Of a DNA stretch of 64,000 bases, positions 53,022-61,625 are shown piece by piece; position 1 is the stretch's first letter, and each line of letters starts with the position of its first letter. The DNA comes from Nitrospira sp. (GTDB taxonomy: Bacteria > Nitrospirota > Nitrospiria > Nitrospirales > Nitrospiraceae). Both the position numbers and the translations under genes were made by a program. The notes below the pieces were generated by a model. That model was not told where the DNA came from. It saw nothing but the letters and a program-made list of their open reading frames with translations, and did no database searches. The DNA lies in assembly GCA_024760545.1 (NCBI GenBank), contig CP060501.1, positions 1,091,501-1,155,500 of the forward strand, read 5' to 3'.

Positions 53022-54680
53022 ATGAAACCGTTTCTTGTCACGGTAGATGACGATCCCGAAGTTTCACGTGCGGTCGAGCGCGACCTCCGCCGCAACTATG
53101 GTGAACAGTACCGAGTCCTCCGTGCTGAATCGGGAGCCGACGCGCTCGCCTCACTGAAACAGCTCAAACTCCGAAATGAGGCGGTTGCCTTGTTTTTGGT
53201 GGATCAGCGGATGCCTCAGATGACGGGAGTTGAATTTCTCGCACAGGCCATCCCGCTCTACCCCAACGCGAAGCGAGCCTTACTGACCGCCTATGCCGAT
53301 ACAGATGCGGCCATTCGAGCGATTAATGACGCGCAAGTCGATTACTATTTGCTGAAGCCATGGCACCCTCCGGAGGAACGCTTGTATCCGGTCATCGACG
53401 ACCTCTTGGACGACTGGCATGCCTCGTTCAAGGCCCCGTTCCAAGGAATCCGGGTGTTGGGCCACCGCTGGTCGCCTCACACGCATCAGATCAAGGAATT
53501 CCTGGCGAGAAATCAGGTTCCCTATCAGTGGCTGGATGTCGAGAAGGAGACCGAAGCGGAGTCTCTGCTTCAGTCCGTCCATGCCGGCCACGATCAACTC
53601 CCGGTGGTCGTGTTCCCCGACGGATCGTTCCTGATTCATCCGACCACGCTCCAGGTGGCGGAGAAAGTCGGCTTTCGGATGAAAGCCGAACAACCCCTCT
53701 ATGACCTCATCGTCATTGGAGCCGGACCAGCCGGATTAGCCGCCGCCGTCTATGGCGGATCCGAAGGGCTCAAGACGGTACTGATCGAACGTGAAGCACC
53801 GGGTGGGCAGGCCGGCATGAGCTCTCGGATTGAGAATTACCTGGGCTTCCCAGCCGGTCTCAGCGGCCAGGATCTCGCGCGACGCGCCTTGACGCAAGCG
53901 CAACGCTTCGGCGTCGAATTGCTGAATCCGCAGGAAGCCGTCAGTGTGCGTGTGGCCGGCCCAGCGCGGATCGTCGCGCTTGCCGATGGCAGCGAGCTCA
54001 ACGGAAAAACCGTCCTCATTACAACCGGTGTTTCCTATCGCACGCTGAACGTACCGGGAATGGCTCAGCTGACCGGTGCGGGGATCTATTATGGTGCCGG
54101 GATGACGGAAGCGTTTTCGTCAAAGGGGGAGGATGTCTATATCATCGGCGGCGCGAATTCAGCCGGCCAGGCGGCCGTATACTTTGCGCGCCATGCCCGT
54201 CAGGTAACGATGCTGGTCCGTGGCGACTCACTGACCGCCACAATGTCCTATTACCTGATCGAGCGCCTCAAGGAAACGCCGAACATCGTCGTCGAAACCA
54301 GCGTGGAGGTGACCGAGGTCCAAGGCACGTCCCGGCTCGAGTCGCTGGTTCTCCAACATGCCAAGACCAAAGACTGCCGCACGGTGCCGGCACAGTCCCT
54401 GTTCATTCTCATCGGCGCCCAACCGCATACCGACTGGCTAGGAGAAAGCGTCCTCCGCGATGAACACGGGTTTATCTTATCCGGTCCGGATTTAGTGCGG
54501 GACGGCTGTTTGCCCCCGACCTGGCCGCTCGAGCGAGCGCCGTACTTATTCGAAACCAGTGTGCCGGGAATCTTCGTGGCAGGCGATGCGCGACATGGCT
54601 CGATCAAGCGGGTCGCATCCGGGGTCGGTGAAGGCACTATCGCAGAAAAGATGATCGAGCGCTATCTGGATGAAGTTTAG
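53022..54680 (+). CDS. response regulator-glutaredoxin-like-thioredoxin reductase-like fusion
   Basis: Three parts. A receiver domain (1-125) has D9/D10/D11, phospho-acceptor D61 and K112. A glutaredoxin-fold segment (about 142-222) reads GHRWSPHTHQIKEFL, where a CxxC would be expected but none occurs. A thioredoxin-reductase-like FAD/NAD domain starts at DLIVIGAGPAGLAAAVYGG. The TrxR redox Cys pair is also missing: residues 356-361 read IYYGAG where CATC normally lies. It therefore probably binds FAD and NAD(P)H but cannot reduce thioredoxin by the standard route. It may be a phospho-regulated redox sensor or a different reductase. Confidence 0.88.
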   Translation: MKPFLVTVDDDPEVSRAVERDLRRNYGEQYRVLRAESGADALASLKQLKLRNEAVALFLVDQRMPQMTGVEFLAQAIPLYPNAKRALLTAYADTDAAIRAINDAQVDYYLLKPWHPPEERLYPVIDDLLDDWHASFKAPFQGIRVLGHRWSPHTHQIKEFLARNQVPYQWLDVEKETEAESLLQSVHAGHDQLPVVVFPDGSFLIHPTTLQVAEKVGFRMKAEQPLYDLIVIGAGPAGLAAAVYGGSEGLKTVLIEREAPGGQAGMSSRIENYLGFPAGLSGQDLARRALTQAQRFGVELLNPQEAVSVRVAGPARIVALADGSELNGKTVLITTGVSYRTLNVPGMAQLTGAGIYYGAGMTEAFSSKGEDVYIIGGANSAGQAAVYFARHARQVTMLVRGDSLTATMSYYLIERLKETPNIVVETSVEVTEVQGTSRLESLVLQHAKTKDCRTVPAQSLFILIGAQPHTDWLGESVLRDEHGFILSGPDLVRDGCLPPTWPLERAPYLFETSVPGIFVAGDARHGSIKRVASGVGEGTIAEKMIERYLDEV

Positions 54681-56439: not shown

Positions 56440-56667
56440 ATGATGTTGTCAGAAGATAATGGGCGGCCTATTTATCCGGCCGATCTTCCTGTGACACAGG
56501 CCCTTCGCGCGACACATCGCTCCCCGAGCTGGAAGTTGTTTGACGGGTGGCGCCCACGGCGTAAGAACCGGCAGGCCGGCCTGCTCGGCAGCGGGACGAG
56601 GAGAGGACAAGCGTTGTTAAAGAGGCTGGCGCAACGAGAGGGCACTAATCTGGCGAGAAATCACTAG
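56440..56667 (+). CDS. small basic hypothetical protein
   Basis: About 75 residues, Arg/Lys-rich (WRPRRKNRQAGLLG, GTRRGQALLKRLAQRE), no signal or span. AAGGAGG lies 7 bases before ATG 56440, strong evidence that it is translated. I recognise no family. A hairpin at 56722-56763 follows it. Possibly a nucleic-acid-associated or short stress protein; unproven. Confidence 0.5.
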   Translation: MMLSEDNGRPIYPADLPVTQALRATHRSPSWKLFDGWRPRRKNRQAGLLGSGTRRGQALLKRLAQREGTNLARNH

Positions 56668-56721
56668 CCGAGGCGTTCGGCTCTCGGCCTTGCAATGGGT
56701 TCCATTGACGCAGTGTGTGCT

Positions 56722-56763
56722 CCAATGAGGCAACGGATGAATAAAAGCCGTTGCCTCACTTGG
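56722..56763. terminator. bidirectional hairpin between convergent genes
   Basis: TGAGGCAACGG (56726-56736) and CCGTTGCCTCA (56748-56758) form a perfect 11-bp stem, extended by CCAA/TTGG. It lies between the small basic protein and the Rh50 gene, which converge. No strong U-run. Confidence 0.6.
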
Positions 56764-56840
56764 AAAACACAGGGTAACGGCCTCTCCCGCTTCACCTACC
56801 GGCAGTCTCGTGACAAGCTGCCAAATGAGATGAAGCTGAG

Positions 56841-58145
56841 TTAGGCAATCGGTCTTGGTTCTTCCCTTCCGGAATGTATTTGTGCCGCCGTCCGAGTGAG
56901 CAGTGCCTTCTGCAGTGCCTCGATATCGGCCTTTGCTCCCAGCGCCAGCTCTTCAACCTTTCGTTCACTTTCCGGACCCGGCACATGGGAAAACTCATGG
57001 CTGTCTTCATAAGCCTGTTCCGTCGTGCCGGTCGCTCTGATCAGTGCACCGGTAATGAACCCTCCGATCAATGCGATCATCAGAGTAAGAGCGATTCCGG
57101 TCAGTTGTACACCGGCGACGCCGGGAACAACGAAGATCGCCGTGAGTCCACCCAGAAGCCCGGGCATCCCGTGTAGATTGTGCACGCCGCAGGTATCCAC
57201 AAGCTTGATCTTAGATTCCAGCATGGGCTGAATGAACACGTAGCCGATGACCGACAGGGTACCTGCGCAGACACCGATGGTGAACGCGCCTCCGGCCCCG
57301 ACGAGATTGCAGGTCGAGCCGATGGACACCCCACCGGCCAGTGCCGCATTGGCCATATCCACCATCGAAGTTTTTCCTTTATGGAAATAGGTGCTCAGAA
57401 AATACGTGGCGAGCGTCGCGCCGCTCAGGGCCAGGATCGTATTCACGATGGTTTGCGGCATTTGCTCGAACGGCACGATCGCCGTCGCAAAACTCGGCCA
57501 GAATAACCACAGCACCATTGACCCAAGCATGCCAAAACGATCAGACGTGGGATCGGACTCGATCGGCTGGCTCCGCTGTTGGGCGGTCGTAATGACCAGA
57601 GAGGCAGCTAACCCGAAATATGCGCCGAATGCATGAATGACGATCGATCCCGCGGAATCTTGAAACCCCTTCGTAAGCCCCGAGCCATTGTCCAACACCA
57701 GGTATTCGTTCAGCGCATAAATGGGCACCAGGAGCAGCGCGAGTATCGCATACTGAAACACGCGTAGCCTTCCAAGCACGGCCCCCATCGCGATCAGGGC
57801 GGTCGCCACGGAAAATTCGGCCAGCATCAGCGTTTCCACCGAATGCGCCTTCAACCCATGCCCGACCAGACCGTTGGCCCGTAGAAACATATACAGCGGC
57901 AATCCGGTCGCCACGACCAGATAGGTGCCCGTTGTTGCCCCGAATCCATACCTCCGGACGAACACCATGAGAAATCCGAATCCGACCACCAACATGGCCA
58001 GGATGTGGATCGAGTAATTGTACTGTGCGACCAGACGCGCTTCATTGATTCCGCCCGCGGGCTCTTCGGCGCTGACCCAGCCGGTGAGACACAAGAGAAA
58101 CAGGCTTGCTGCGCTCAGCACCTTCAAACAGAAGCTGTTCTGCAT
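56841..58145 (-). CDS. Rh-family (Rh50-type) ammonia channel
   Basis: 434 residues with an N-terminal signal-like segment and about 11 spans. It is Rh rather than Amt by several signatures: VGFGFLMVFVRRYGFGA near the N-terminus, SIVIHAFGAYFGLAAS (first pore His H171), MLGSMVLWLFWPSFATAI, MVDMANAALAGGVSIGSTC and DTCGVHNLHGMPGLLGG (H322, H325 region). Rh proteins conduct neutral NH3 (or facilitate NH3/CO2) and are typical of ammonia oxidisers such as Nitrosomonas; they have been reported for comammox clade A Nitrospira. ATG 58145 has AAGGAGG. Downstream of, and on the same strand as, the guanidinase-like gene. Confidence 0.9.
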   Translation of the reverse strand: MQNSFCLKVLSAASLFLLCLTGWVSAEEPAGGINEARLVAQYNYSIHILAMLVVGFGFLMVFVRRYGFGATTGTYLVVATGLPLYMFLRANGLVGHGLKAHSVETLMLAEFSVATALIAMGAVLGRLRVFQYAILALLLVPIYALNEYLVLDNGSGLTKGFQDSAGSIVIHAFGAYFGLAASLVITTAQQRSQPIESDPTSDRFGMLGSMVLWLFWPSFATAIVPFEQMPQTIVNTILALSGATLATYFLSTYFHKGKTSMVDMANAALAGGVSIGSTCNLVGAGGAFTIGVCAGTLSVIGYVFIQPMLESKIKLVDTCGVHNLHGMPGLLGGLTAIFVVPGVAGVQLTGIALTLMIALIGGFITGALIRATGTTEQAYEDSHEFSHVPGPESERKVEELALGAKADIEALQKALLTRTAAQIHSGREEPRPIA

Positions 58146-58191
58146 TGAGTCCTCCTTGGACAATAGGAGTAATGGGGGCTATTGGGGTCGC

Positions 58192-58222
58192 AGTGTACCC
58201 CACTTGCAAGCGCCCTTGTCAA
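58192..58222 (-). promoter_or_regulatory. candidate promoter of the Rh50 gene
   Basis: On the minus strand TTGACA (58217-58222) is followed after 19 bases by TACACT (58192-58197). The -35 is perfect; spacing is long. It would give the channel its own promoter in addition to read-through from the guanidinase gene. Confidence 0.4.
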
Positions 58223-58297
58223 ACCCCACCAAAGGTTTGTTCTAGGGGCTCCATCATCCGAGCAACGGTATCAATCAGTGAGGAGAGGGCTTTGCGG

Positions 58298-58405
58298 ATG
58301 GGGATCTGGAAGAAACTCCTGCAGTTGATTGACTATACCATTAGAAGCGGAAGAACTCTCTCGACACGTCCTGATCGTTATCCACGCCGGCCCATAAGCA
58401 ATTGA
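58298..58405 (+). CDS. possible 35-aa ORF between guanidinase and Rh50 genes
   Basis: A plus-strand frame starting MGIWKKLLQLIDYTIRS and ending RPISN, with GGAGAGG upstream at poor (~10 base) spacing. It runs antisense to the flanking genes and its end overlaps the terminator hairpin. Could be a small peptide or chance. Confidence 0.25.
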   Translation: MGIWKKLLQLIDYTIRSGRTLSTRPDRYPRRPISN

Positions 58406-58420
58406 TTTGCTTGGGCCGGC
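58386..58420 (-). terminator. hairpin after the guanidinase-like gene
   Basis: GCCGGCCC and GGGCCGGC (8 bp) plus AAGCAA/TTGCTT close a stem with a 2-base bulge, 13 bases past the stop codon at 58433. No U-run, so it may be an attenuator or RNA-stabilising stem. Confidence 0.5.
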
Positions 58421-58432
58421 TTGTCTCGTTCC

Positions 58433-59581
58433 TCACCGTTTCTTTCTCGCTGCCAGGTGTCCGGATCGCACCTGACATGCCAAGACATCGCAGATCACCC
58501 GCGTGGCCATGAGACTCGTGATCTCAGCAGCGTCGTAGGGCGGTGAACATTCCACGATCTCCATCCCTGCCAGCGGCTTCGCGTCCGCGATAATTTGGAG
58601 GAACTTCAAGACTTCGCGAGGTAAAAATCCCCCCGGCTCCGGCCAGCCTGTTCCGGGGACAAAGGCCGCATCCAAGCAATCCACGTCGAAACTGAGCCAG
58701 ACGGCATCGACCCCATCCCATGCCACCTCCAGCGCCTGTTTGGCGGCGTTCTCGATTCCCATCTCCACGCAATCCGTGACGGTCATAATGCTCGTTTGGC
58801 GATCACGGCCGCTCTTCACGCCCGGCCTCGGCGACTGCCAGCCACCGATCCCGATTTGCACCAGATTCTTGGCGGGAACGTTGGGGATATTCGTCGCGTG
58901 AAACCAAGGCGTCGTGTGCATGCGCTCATCGAGATCGGTATCCTGCGTGTCCACATGCCGGTCGAAATGGATGATGCCGAGCTTCTTACCGTTCAGATGC
59001 TGAGCCACTCCCCTCACCGTCGCGAAGCCCAACGAATGGTCTCCTCCCAACACCACGGGAAACGCGCCGCTGGAATAGACATGGCCGACCCCTTTGCTGA
59101 CTTGGTCGAATGTCTTTTCGATGTTGGCGGGGATGGTAAAGACGTCGCCGAGATCGCACATAGACATCGATTCTCGCAGATCCACGCCGAGTTCGAAGCT
59201 ATAGGTCCCGTACAACGCCGAGATCTTGCGAATACCCTGAGGTCCGAACCGGGTGCCGGAGCGGTAGGTCGTGCCGCCGTCGAACGGCGCACCGAGAATG
59301 GCGACGTCGTACTCGCCGCACTTCCGAACGTCTTCCACATAGGGCGACTTCACGAACGTGTTGATTCCGGCGAAATGCGGAAGCTCGCCACGGCTGAACG
59401 TGGGAATCCGGCGATCGACGATCGAATCAGCAGCGGGAAGACCCAATTGAAGGCCGCGCGCTATTTCCTCTTCGTGTTTGGTGGTCGGAAGCAGTGCTTC
59501 CGCCTCGACGGCATACTTTGCCTCAGGACCATATCGATCATGAAGGGGAACTTCGCCGCGATACTTTCGCTCCTTCGCCAT
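58433..59581 (-). CDS. ureohydrolase, guanidine hydrolase (GdmH)-like rather than agmatinase
   Basis: 382 residues; agmatinases are usually ~300. The extra length is an N-terminal extension of ~80 residues, as in the Ni2+-dependent guanidine hydrolase GdmH of Synechocystis (~390 residues). Ureohydrolase metal ligands are H182 (GGDHS), D207, H209 and D211 (HFDRHVDT), D299 and D301 (SFDVD). The segment DTQDTDLDERMHTTPWFHAT and the match FVPGTGWPEPGG are as I recall for GdmH-type proteins, which have Arg/Thr changes around the metal site. It would convert guanidine to urea and ammonium. AAGGAGG precedes ATG 59581. Agmatinase activity is the alternative. Confidence 0.8.
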   Translation of the reverse strand: MAKERKYRGEVPLHDRYGPEAKYAVEAEALLPTTKHEEEIARGLQLGLPAADSIVDRRIPTFSRGELPHFAGINTFVKSPYVEDVRKCGEYDVAILGAPFDGGTTYRSGTRFGPQGIRKISALYGTYSFELGVDLRESMSMCDLGDVFTIPANIEKTFDQVSKGVGHVYSSGAFPVVLGGDHSLGFATVRGVAQHLNGKKLGIIHFDRHVDTQDTDLDERMHTTPWFHATNIPNVPAKNLVQIGIGGWQSPRPGVKSGRDRQTSIMTVTDCVEMGIENAAKQALEVAWDGVDAVWLSFDVDCLDAAFVPGTGWPEPGGFLPREVLKFLQIIADAKPLAGMEIVECSPPYDAAEITSLMATRVICDVLACQVRSGHLAARKKR

Positions 59582-59845
59582 GAAGATACCTCCTTGCTGA
59601 GATGTTTCACACAAACAGAATGGACAGAATACCCATTTACATGGTGGAAATCAGCAACGAATTGCGCGTGCCCAACGTGAGGACCATTCATCGCTTGACG
59701 GAGATGATGTCCCATCCAGCGGACCATCATCACGGTCTCCCGCCGATAAACCTCCCGCGCTTTTTTCAACCATCGAGGCGATGACACACCGCTTTTTACG
59801 GCCCGCTAGACAGCAGTGCTGTCCCGAGTATAATGACAACAGTTC

Positions 59846-60817
59846 ATGTGTATGATCAGACTTCTGGCCCTGCTCCTCAGCCTCATATTGCCGTTCCCAT
59901 ATCCAACTTCCTCGTGGGCTGAAGCGGGTTATGAGGAGAGCCTCAAACAGTTGGCGGAAGGGGTGACAGAAAAATCCGCCAAAGCCAAAAAGCAGCGGCT
60001 CGCGATTCTCGACTTTACCGATTCCACCGGAGAGCCCACTCCGATAGGACGGTTCATTGCCGAGGAGCTCGGGACACAGATCATGGTGGGCGGGGAGCTA
60101 ACGGTGGTTGACCGCACGCTCACATACTCGACACTGAAAAAGCAGAACGTGGATCACTTCGACTCGGCTGATACGAAAGTCCTACGGCGCGCGGCCAAAG
60201 CGATACGCGCCGACGTATTTGTGAAGGGTATGGCAATCGAGACTCCCGAGGGCCTGCAGGTCTCCGTGAAGCTCATCAGCCCGTCGAACGCCCACCCGGT
60301 CGGCGCTGCGCGCGGAACCATTCCAAAAGCCGGTCCCCTGAGTGCCTTTTTCAAGAAGGAGGAGCCGGCGCCACAACCACTCGTGATCATCGAGAGTCCG
60401 AAAGAGTCGGCGCCGCCGGCTGGGCTCGGAACGCACCGGAACGAACACTACGAGTTGGTCGTGACTTCGATCGAAAAGCAGGACGGGCGAACGAAGGTGG
60501 ACGTGACCATAGAAAATCATTCTCCGCGCGATCTAAAACTCCTGTGTCACTTGCAGGACACACTGCTGAAGGACGATCATGGAACCGCCTGGCATCAAGG
60601 CGTCGAGGAGAATCGGGAAGGACTCTGTACGCGCGGGCTTGAACTCTTCTCTCGCCGAAAGGAACGGACTGTGCTCACGTTCACCGGCTCTCCGCATGTC
60701 TCGGTCGCTCAGTTCACGTTGCACTTCCACGAGAAATTGCCGAGACGGGACGCTTCCTTCGTGATCGATGGGCTAAAAGTCGGATCATCGTCAGAACCAG
60801 CGCAAGCTGTACCGTAG
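59846..60817 (+). CDS. exported FlgO-like / CsgG-like protein
   Basis: 323 residues: a signal peptide (MIRLLALLLSLILPF, cleaved near SWA), then an alpha/beta domain of the FlgO type (RLAILDFTDSTGEPTPIGRFIAEELGTQIM, ELTVVDRTLTYSTLKKQNV, AKAIRADVFVKGMAIETPEG), and a C-terminal beta domain (from YELVVTSIEKQDGRTKVDV). FlgO proteins are outer-membrane components near the flagellum; no flagellar genes are present here, so a generic envelope role is likely. ATG 59846 or ATG 59852. Divergent from the guanidinase gene; 7 bases upstream of thiD. Confidence 0.75.
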   Translation: MCMIRLLALLLSLILPFPYPTSSWAEAGYEESLKQLAEGVTEKSAKAKKQRLAILDFTDSTGEPTPIGRFIAEELGTQIMVGGELTVVDRTLTYSTLKKQNVDHFDSADTKVLRRAAKAIRADVFVKGMAIETPEGLQVSVKLISPSNAHPVGAARGTIPKAGPLSAFFKKEEPAPQPLVIIESPKESAPPAGLGTHRNEHYELVVTSIEKQDGRTKVDVTIENHSPRDLKLLCHLQDTLLKDDHGTAWHQGVEENREGLCTRGLELFSRRKERTVLTFTGSPHVSVAQFTLHFHEKLPRRDASFVIDGLKVGSSSEPAQAVP

Positions 60818-60824
60818 AGGGTAT

Positions 60825-61625
60825 ATGTCGAATACGTTAAAACAAGTGCTGACCATTGCTGGTTCAGACTCCGGAGGAGGAGCGGGAATCCAAGCCGACA
60901 TCAAAGCCATGTCCGCCAACGGCGTCTTCGCCATGTCGGTGATTACAGCCATCACGGCTCAGAACACCGAAGAAGTGACGGATATCTTCGAACTGCCGTC
61001 CGCAATCATCGCGGCTCAGATCGACGCGATCTTCGATGATTTCGAGGTCGCCGCCGTGAAGACCGGGATGTTGTCTTCTGCTGCCGTCGTCGACGTCATC
61101 GTGAAAATGCTGACCCCCCAACACGTGGCCAATCTGGTTGTCGATCCGGTGATGATTTCCAAGAGCGGCCATCCTCTTTTGAGACCGGATGCAGTCGAGG
61201 CCGTCAAGACGACACTGCTTCCGCTCGCCTTGGTCGTGACCCCGAACGTGCATGAGGCACAACAACTTTCCGGGATCGAAATTACATCTTTGGCGGACGC
61301 CCGGCGAGCGGCCAAGGTGATTCATGGCTTCGGCTGCAAGCATGTGCTGATCAAAGGCGGTCATCTCCTCAATGAACGGGCAACCGATCTGCTCTATGAC
61401 GGGAGATTTTTCAACGTCCTGAAGGGGGAGTTCATTGAGACCCGACATACCCATGGCACAGGGTGTACGTTCGCCTCCGCATTGGCCGCTCATCTTGCCC
61501 AAGGGCGGTCCGTCTTAGACGCGGCGCAGACCGCGAAGTCCTACGTCACCGAGGCGATCCGGCATGGATTAGCGATCGGCCATGGCCAAGGCCCGACCGA
61601 TCATTTTTATTTCCTGGAGCGATAG
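60825..61625 (+). CDS. thiD: hydroxymethylpyrimidine/phosphomethylpyrimidine kinase ThiD
   Basis: 266 residues of the ribokinase fold. The N-terminal motif LTIAGSDSGGGAGIQADIKAM and the C-terminal HTHGTGCTFASALAAHLAQG (anion hole/catalytic Asp region as in ThiD) are diagnostic. It phosphorylates HMP to HMP-PP for thiamine synthesis. A GAGGG site precedes ATG 60825. Follows the FlgO-like gene by 7 bases, probably cotranscribed. No other thi gene or TPP riboswitch is in the window. Confidence 0.93.
   Translation: MSNTLKQVLTIAGSDSGGGAGIQADIKAMSANGVFAMSVITAITAQNTEEVTDIFELPSAIIAAQIDAIFDDFEVAAVKTGMLSSAAVVDVIVKMLTPQHVANLVVDPVMISKSGHPLLRPDAVEAVKTTLLPLALVVTPNVHEAQQLSGIEITSLADARRAAKVIHGFGCKHVLIKGGHLLNERATDLLYDGRFFNVLKGEFIETRHTHGTGCTFASALAAHLAQGRSVLDAAQTAKSYVTEAIRHGLAIGHGQGPTDHFYFLER

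Follow-up and report, generated by a model that had tools for sequence, protein, structure and literature searches.

Why should the gene for a guanidine-hydrolyzing enzyme lie next to that for an ammonia channel, away from any guanidine riboswitch? The question is raised by a stretch of 64,000 nucleotides from the genome of a Nitrospira sp. (contig CP060501.1, positions 1,091,501 to 1,155,500; "the window" below, at its full length), in which gdmH, encoding an enzyme of the ureohydrolase superfamily, and rh50, encoding an Rh50-type channel, follow one another on the minus strand. The genome (G000) comprises 4.81 Mb in two contigs. An earlier, sequence-only reading of the window had described the pair as a guanidine hydrolase and a channel forming one nitrogen-acquisition module. 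The comparisons reported here uphold both gene assignments and point to a different history: gdmH is probably the survivor of an ancestral, riboswitch-free arrangement in which a guanidinase stood beside rh50, and its putative product is the sole guanidinase found in the species.

Guanidinase, channel, and nitrogen genes

The closest solved structure to the gdmH product is 9FEK, the Nitrospira inopinata guanidinase according to the available text of PMC11410670, with 382/382 residues aligned at 92% identity (831 bits; 30 differences counted by eye). The same source names Thr105, His222, Trp313, and Glu344 (N. inopinata numbering) as diagnostic of guanidinases, and all four are present in the window's protein as well as in 33/33 other copies compared (L041, L043, and L044 were left out of this comparison of rh50-side with other copies). 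Because of this identity and the four residues, the product is assigned as a guanidinase, with its activity predicted from homology. The segments HFDRHVDT and DERMHTTPWFHAT, which had first suggested a guanidine hydrolase, do occur in the protein. The comparison with Synechocystis GdmH and with agmatinases, proposed by the sequence-only reading as a check, favors the same assignment: the product scores 568 bits against 7ESR, the next best match being a proclavaminate amidinohydrolase at 179 bits, and it falls below the agmatinase cut-off. Measured against four other species with the same arrangement, gdmH has a nonsynonymous divergence (dN) of 0.030-0.036 and a synonymous divergence (dS) of 1.4-2.4, the latter near saturation; the gene is under purifying selection.

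That the product is instead an agmatinase or a guanidino-acid hydrolase we regard as very improbable. Database names do say agmatinase, the score of 162 bits on the NCBIfam agmatinase model comes near the cut-off of 174, and the N. inopinata guanidinase itself also released some urea from agmatine, as stated in the available part of PMC11410670. The score nevertheless lies under that cut-off, the guanidinase residues are in place, and a second ureohydrolase of the genome passes the agmatinase cut-off, its gene adjoining one for a pyruvoyl-dependent arginine decarboxylase. An agmatinase identity was rejected on the score, the residues, and the structure matches to guanidinases.

The neighboring channel has 3b9w as its best solved match (645 bits over residues 29-415), with 3bhs, named Rh50, at 644 bits; we take the source of both structures to be Nitrosomonas europaea. 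Against 1xqe, named a probable ammonium transporter, it reaches 46 bits, and on the Amt model 114 bits versus a cut-off of 343. Judged by these scores the channel is of the Rh type and not Amt, as had been proposed, and it is the sole PF00909 (Amt/Rh) member found in the genome. The ammonia-oxidizing setting supposed from the window is likewise borne out at the genome level. Two amoA genes score above cut-off, by which the genome is that of a predicted ammonia oxidizer, and in one copy amoC-amoA is followed by a 419-residue amoB-like frame (amoB and amoC named by inspection). Urease gamma, beta, and alpha subunits are encoded together with UreG, UrtA, UrtD, and UrtE. Nickel-loading proteins occur in no comammox (complete ammonia-oxidizing) genome, according to the available text of PMC11410670. 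A second amoC-amoA pair (L087 4307-8089; G000:C1, approximately 3592306-3596088) precedes an FtsH-like gene, not an amoB-like one (names by inspection). It faces a guanidine permease-carboxylase operon, and its amoA protein is identical to the L088 copy.

Guanidine use by comammox bacteria, invoked by the sequence-only reading, has been published. N. inopinata grows on guanidine and possesses a triad of guanidine-I riboswitch, APC permease, and guanidinase (PMC11410670, Nature 2024); of the 83 comammox genomes counted in a figure legend there, 56 have the riboswitch, and 46 of those 56 the full triad. According to the consulted portion of PMC12342949, most comammox genomes encode both permease and guanidinase, and two non-comammox genomes have guanidinase-like genes but neither transport genes nor a riboswitch; the part of PMC12625717 available on floodplain nitrifiers records no guanidine genes. 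The conversion of guanidine to urea is therefore already known for comammox, and riboswitch-free guanidinases are not new as such, because only 56/83 comammox genomes carry the riboswitch in the text of PMC11410670 at hand. Among the papers listed by our literature search, none names both a guanidinase and Rh50, though the arrangement may be drawn among the gene neighborhoods of Extended Data Fig. 1 in PMC11410670.

The rh50-thiD site in the window and in relatives

Intact gdmH between rh50 and the FlgO-like/thiD genes is present in six genomes (the window's, G117, G115, G077, G111, and G087) of five species, and in all five species gdmH and rh50 share strand and order. A DUF2130 gene separates them in G115, G111, and G087 (3/5 species), and an rh50 fragment does so in G077. 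Outside these six, 48 genomes have an Rh50 match; 46 of them supplied 47 loci for comparison, and two were left out: G072, whose locus is cut by the contig, and G005, which belongs to another genus (50% identity). None of the 47 loci has intact gdmH beside rh50; in 32 of them, thiD is visible close to rh50. With 23 gdmH queries (E <= 0.01), fragments of the gene are detected at 17/47 loci, in one of which (L212) the contig stops before thiD. All 249 fragment matches fall in the gap from rh50 to the FlgO-like/thiD side and on the strand of rh50, and the 23 reversed queries yield no match in the 47 loci. The strongest fragment spans 151 bp at 83% identity (E 7e-38). Because fragments recur at the same site and on the same strand in 17/47 loci, the rh50-gdmH-thiD order looks like an old comammox arrangement that was lost or decayed in many lineages. 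The rh50-gdmH neighborhood itself is real and probably old. In G077 (L163 8298-13750), remnants of gdmH, the FlgO-like gene, and rh50 are arrayed in tandem next to longer copies, in the manner of a locus that has duplicated and partly decayed.

Within the window (Table 1), gdmH and rh50 are separated by a spacer of approximately 290 bp. A promoter and a hairpin had been proposed between the two genes. The hairpin was recovered, with arms of 12 nt each (58383-58394 and 58412-58423); the segment 58130-58440 folds with z = -2.48, equaled in 1/100 shuffles, and the hairpin is not among the calls of a terminator scan. The promoter was not: a crude sigma-70-type scan of 56500-59900 gives no minus-strand site (two sites in total versus a shuffle mean of 1.7), and its best site (59807-59834, 11/12) is on the plus strand and faces the divergent FlgO-like/thiD genes. 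No guanidine riboswitch is found in the window at gathering scores. A hidden or weak riboswitch beside gdmH was considered and rejected, since 58100-59900 has no Rfam match even at E 5. The riboswitch and APC permease that would define a comammox triad are absent directly upstream of gdmH. Farther off, at 53022-54680, a thioredoxin-reductase-like protein carries a fused response-regulator receiver domain; its gene precedes a DsbA-like one and a frame resembling DedA (the last by inspection).

Table 1. Positions of gdmH, rh50, and adjoining features in the window
Feature	Position	Strand	Remarks
gdmH, putative guanidinase (Ni-type guanidine hydrolase, ureohydrolase superfamily; 382 aa)	58433-59581	-	ATG at 59581; by sequence
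Rh50-type ammonia channel (434 aa)	56841-58145	-	ATG at 58145; by sequence
Strong hairpin without T-run	58383-58423	-	directly 3' of gdmH stop codon, between gdmH and rh50
Divergent intergenic region, gdmH / FlgO-like gene	59582-59845		segments conserved in the five gdmH-keeping species; no Rfam match
FlgO-domain protein	59846-60817	+	divergent neighbor, frequent partner of the rh50-thiD locus
thiD-like gene	60825-61625	+	named by inspection

Descent, transfer, or functional pairing

In a gdmH DNA tree of 46 rows (copies with fewer than ~370 matched residues were excluded, with L058 as an exception, and four actinobacterial rows failed the filter), the six intact rh50-side copies group in a single clade (98/94) that excludes the other comammox guanidinases; the latter are joined by a branch of lower support (85/77). 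A tree of four neighbor genes does not unite the five gdmH-keeping species, so that four changes are needed, and both non-trivial splits among these species agree between the two trees. Taken together, the trees fit descent with many losses better than recent transfer. A recent move of gdmH from the triad was considered and dropped, since the clade of rh50-side copies lies outside the remaining comammox copies and fragments are found at the site in many other species. The records L018 and L042 bear the titles Nitrosospira and Proteobacteria, and their guanidinases fall inside comammox clusters of the tree; the bins or titles may be wrong.

The distribution of other copies is consistent with replacement. 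By hand count, a full-length guanidinase elsewhere in the genome is present in 0/6 genomes with an intact rh50-side copy versus 34/46 without one; five of these 46 have only a partial guanidinase elsewhere and seven have none. G077 combines the intact rh50-side copy with a truncated riboswitch-side copy and a permease stub. A 72-75% identical permease, placed after a TadA-like gene, is kept in G111, G115, G087, and G077, and a strict-filter survey of 175 genomes of the family shows no guanidine-I riboswitch in the first three. In G142, a member of another genus (g17), two guanidinase-permease neighborhoods (L170 and L171) are located on different contigs.

Several observations weigh against an ancestral rh50-side position. 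A union of the rh50-side clade with the main cluster of 26 rows (p 0.218), or with an 11-row cluster holding a record titled Rifle_cladeB (p 0.38), is not rejected by approximately unbiased (AU) tests. The neighbor-gene tree covers four genes and does not stand for a tree of whole genomes. The best matches at 4/17 fragment loci are weak (E 3e-4 to 4e-3), the fragments are not always nearest to the rh50-side type when typed against the triad copies, and 16/32 thiD-linked loci have no gdmH fragment, so the gene may have been missing from this site in some lineages all along. For G077 a contamination of 6% is listed, and its two copies could represent a strain mix. Repeated transfer into one site by recombination may also have taken place.

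A competing reading states that a guanidinase from outside entered the rh50-thiD gap of several comammox species, either independently or by recombination between species. Guanidinases of ~80-85% identity do exist in Actinomycetota and Chloroflexota records (among the best 80 of 572 related loci, those kept in the scan), the five species are not a clade by their neighbor genes, and half of the thiD-linked loci bear no trace of gdmH. Against this, the intact copies form a single clade whose splits are congruent with the neighbor genes, and the fragments share site and strand; we consider such entry unlikely. A comparably small chance is given to the proposal, close to that of the sequence-only reading, that the two genes are regulated together and have stayed paired because Rh50 deals with the ammonia released by guanidine hydrolysis. 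The constant strand and order would suit a pair of this kind, and the fragments in other species show that the linkage is old. The genes are nevertheless parted by DUF2130 or an rh50 fragment in four of the five species, the strong hairpin lies between them in the window, and the other Nitrospira gdmH loci among the best 80 of 572 have no Rh50 match in flanks of up to 10 kb. The case for a two-gene module is also weakened because rh50 keeps its place near thiD where gdmH has been lost or has decayed. Of the nitrogen module first proposed, the chemistry is sound and the functional pairing is less well supported, the intact pair having been seen in six genomes; the linkage looks like an old locus and not a dedicated two-gene unit. 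The two genes are probably neighbors by descent, and a functional tie between them is possible.

We return to descent as the probable explanation. The ancestor of Rh50-bearing comammox Nitrospira would have carried a riboswitch-free guanidinase beside its ammonia channel; the rh50-side gdmH would then have been lost or have decayed in many lineages, most of them with another guanidinase copy, and survived intact in five of the species sampled. In the species of the window, guanidine would switch on the permease through the riboswitch, and the guanidinase, from what we infer to be its own promoter, would convert guanidine and water to urea and ammonium. Urease would split the urea, and the ammonia would feed ammonia oxidation. 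As far as we have searched, two things are new: a guanidinase clade of its own at the rh50-thiD site, where many relatives have scraps of gdmH, and a species that combines both guanidine pathways and has an unusual residue at the reported specificity site of the carboxylase. Regulation, redundancy, and replacement of guanidine pathways become testable in enrichments.

The riboswitch operon and known guanidine systems

The only guanidine-I riboswitch found in the window's genome is at C1:3602766-3602870, 2.45 Mb from gdmH in contig coordinates. It leads an APC permease, CgdA (UAAP1), CgdB (UAAP2), and a urea-carboxylase-type protein of 1225 residues, close to the second amoC-amoA copy. The sequence-only reading was silent on the riboswitch, the permease, and this second, carboxylase-type guanidine operon. 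Matches to neighboring CgdA and CgdB occur in 4/175 family genomes (the window's, G117 of the same species, G136, and G147), with the carboxylase following in 4/4. Because G136 and G147 have no guanidinase match at E 1e-60, the window's species is, by these two kinds of match, the only one with both guanidine pathways among the 175 genomes, many of which are incomplete. The available text of PMC11410670 puts the carboxylase pathway in only two comammox genomes.

Guanidine use by this carboxylase is doubtful. In the accessible parts of two sources, Asp at Kluyveromyces lactis position 1330 separates guanidine from urea carboxylases (PMC11410670), and the site holds Asp in guanidine and Asn in urea carboxylase (PMC12186494, a review). 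The position, located by counting along the alignment to 5i8i, is Ile719 (ATT) in the window's genome and also in a second assembly of the species, whose carboxylase differs at five other residues. Asp is found in 10/10 other carboxylases compared, two of them from comammox (nine of 268 plasmid records with carboxylase matches were used). A urea carboxylase encoded next to atzF, with no UAAP genes, has Asn. The Asp at K. lactis position 1584 is present, and 59/61 sites are kept that six other guanidine-type carboxylases share and the urea carboxylase lacks. Changes at sites invariant in seven others number three, versus seven and three in the two other comammox carboxylases. Decay of the operon to a pseudogene is not supported given only three such changes, though Ile719 stands out.

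Among the matches listed, no allophanate hydrolase exceeds the cut-off of 511 in the window's genome, where the best of two matches counted (242 bits) adjoins a gatB-like gene (by inspection), and 1/175 family genomes has one above the cut-off. Allophanate might decay to urea and then pass through urease. A division of labor is a further idea, to which we assign a low probability: the riboswitch, no longer in control of the guanidinase, would induce the permease and the carboxylase/CgdAB set; the carboxylase, its specificity changed by Asp to Ile, would act on a different compound related to guanidine or urea (an N-alkylated one, for instance), and the old rh50-side guanidinase would serve guanidine constitutively.

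We also note a third DUF1989 protein (G000:C1:1995635-1996129, L149) that is unlinked to the carboxylase operon; single copies with similar scores exist in other family members. A second APC permease (71-75% identical) closely follows a TadA-like deaminase gene in several comammox genomes (L182-L185, L187, and L189). In the window's genome (L087 14928-15482), the riboswitch and permease occupy the corresponding position.

Viewed beside known systems, the operon resembles the guanidine carboxylase pathway (guanidine carboxylase, CgdAB, and allophanate hydrolase) in having UAAP1, UAAP2, and carboxylase in that order and in retaining nearly all guanidine-type sites; it differs in the Ile at the Asp/Asn specificity site and in the lack of an allophanate hydrolase above cut-off among the matches listed. 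With the comammox triad (as given in the available part of PMC11410670) the genome shares riboswitch class and permease family, whereas here these lead CgdA, CgdB, and the carboxylase, and the guanidinase is remote from them. The channel aligns with the bacterial Rh50 structures over most of its length. GdmH of Synechocystis PCC 6803 (7ESR/7OI1) belongs to the same family, window residues 19-379 aligning with it. According to the portion of PMC12186494 available, its operon is controlled by a guanidine-I riboswitch and also encodes an ABC transporter and Ni-loading proteins; none of these is seen beside the window's gdmH. The nearest relative is the N. inopinata guanidinase (9FEK; PMC11410670), which the window's protein matches end to end with the same diagnostic residues. 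The window's gene differs from it in standing apart from riboswitch and APC permease and in falling into a clade of its own among comammox guanidinases, the one located at the rh50-thiD site.

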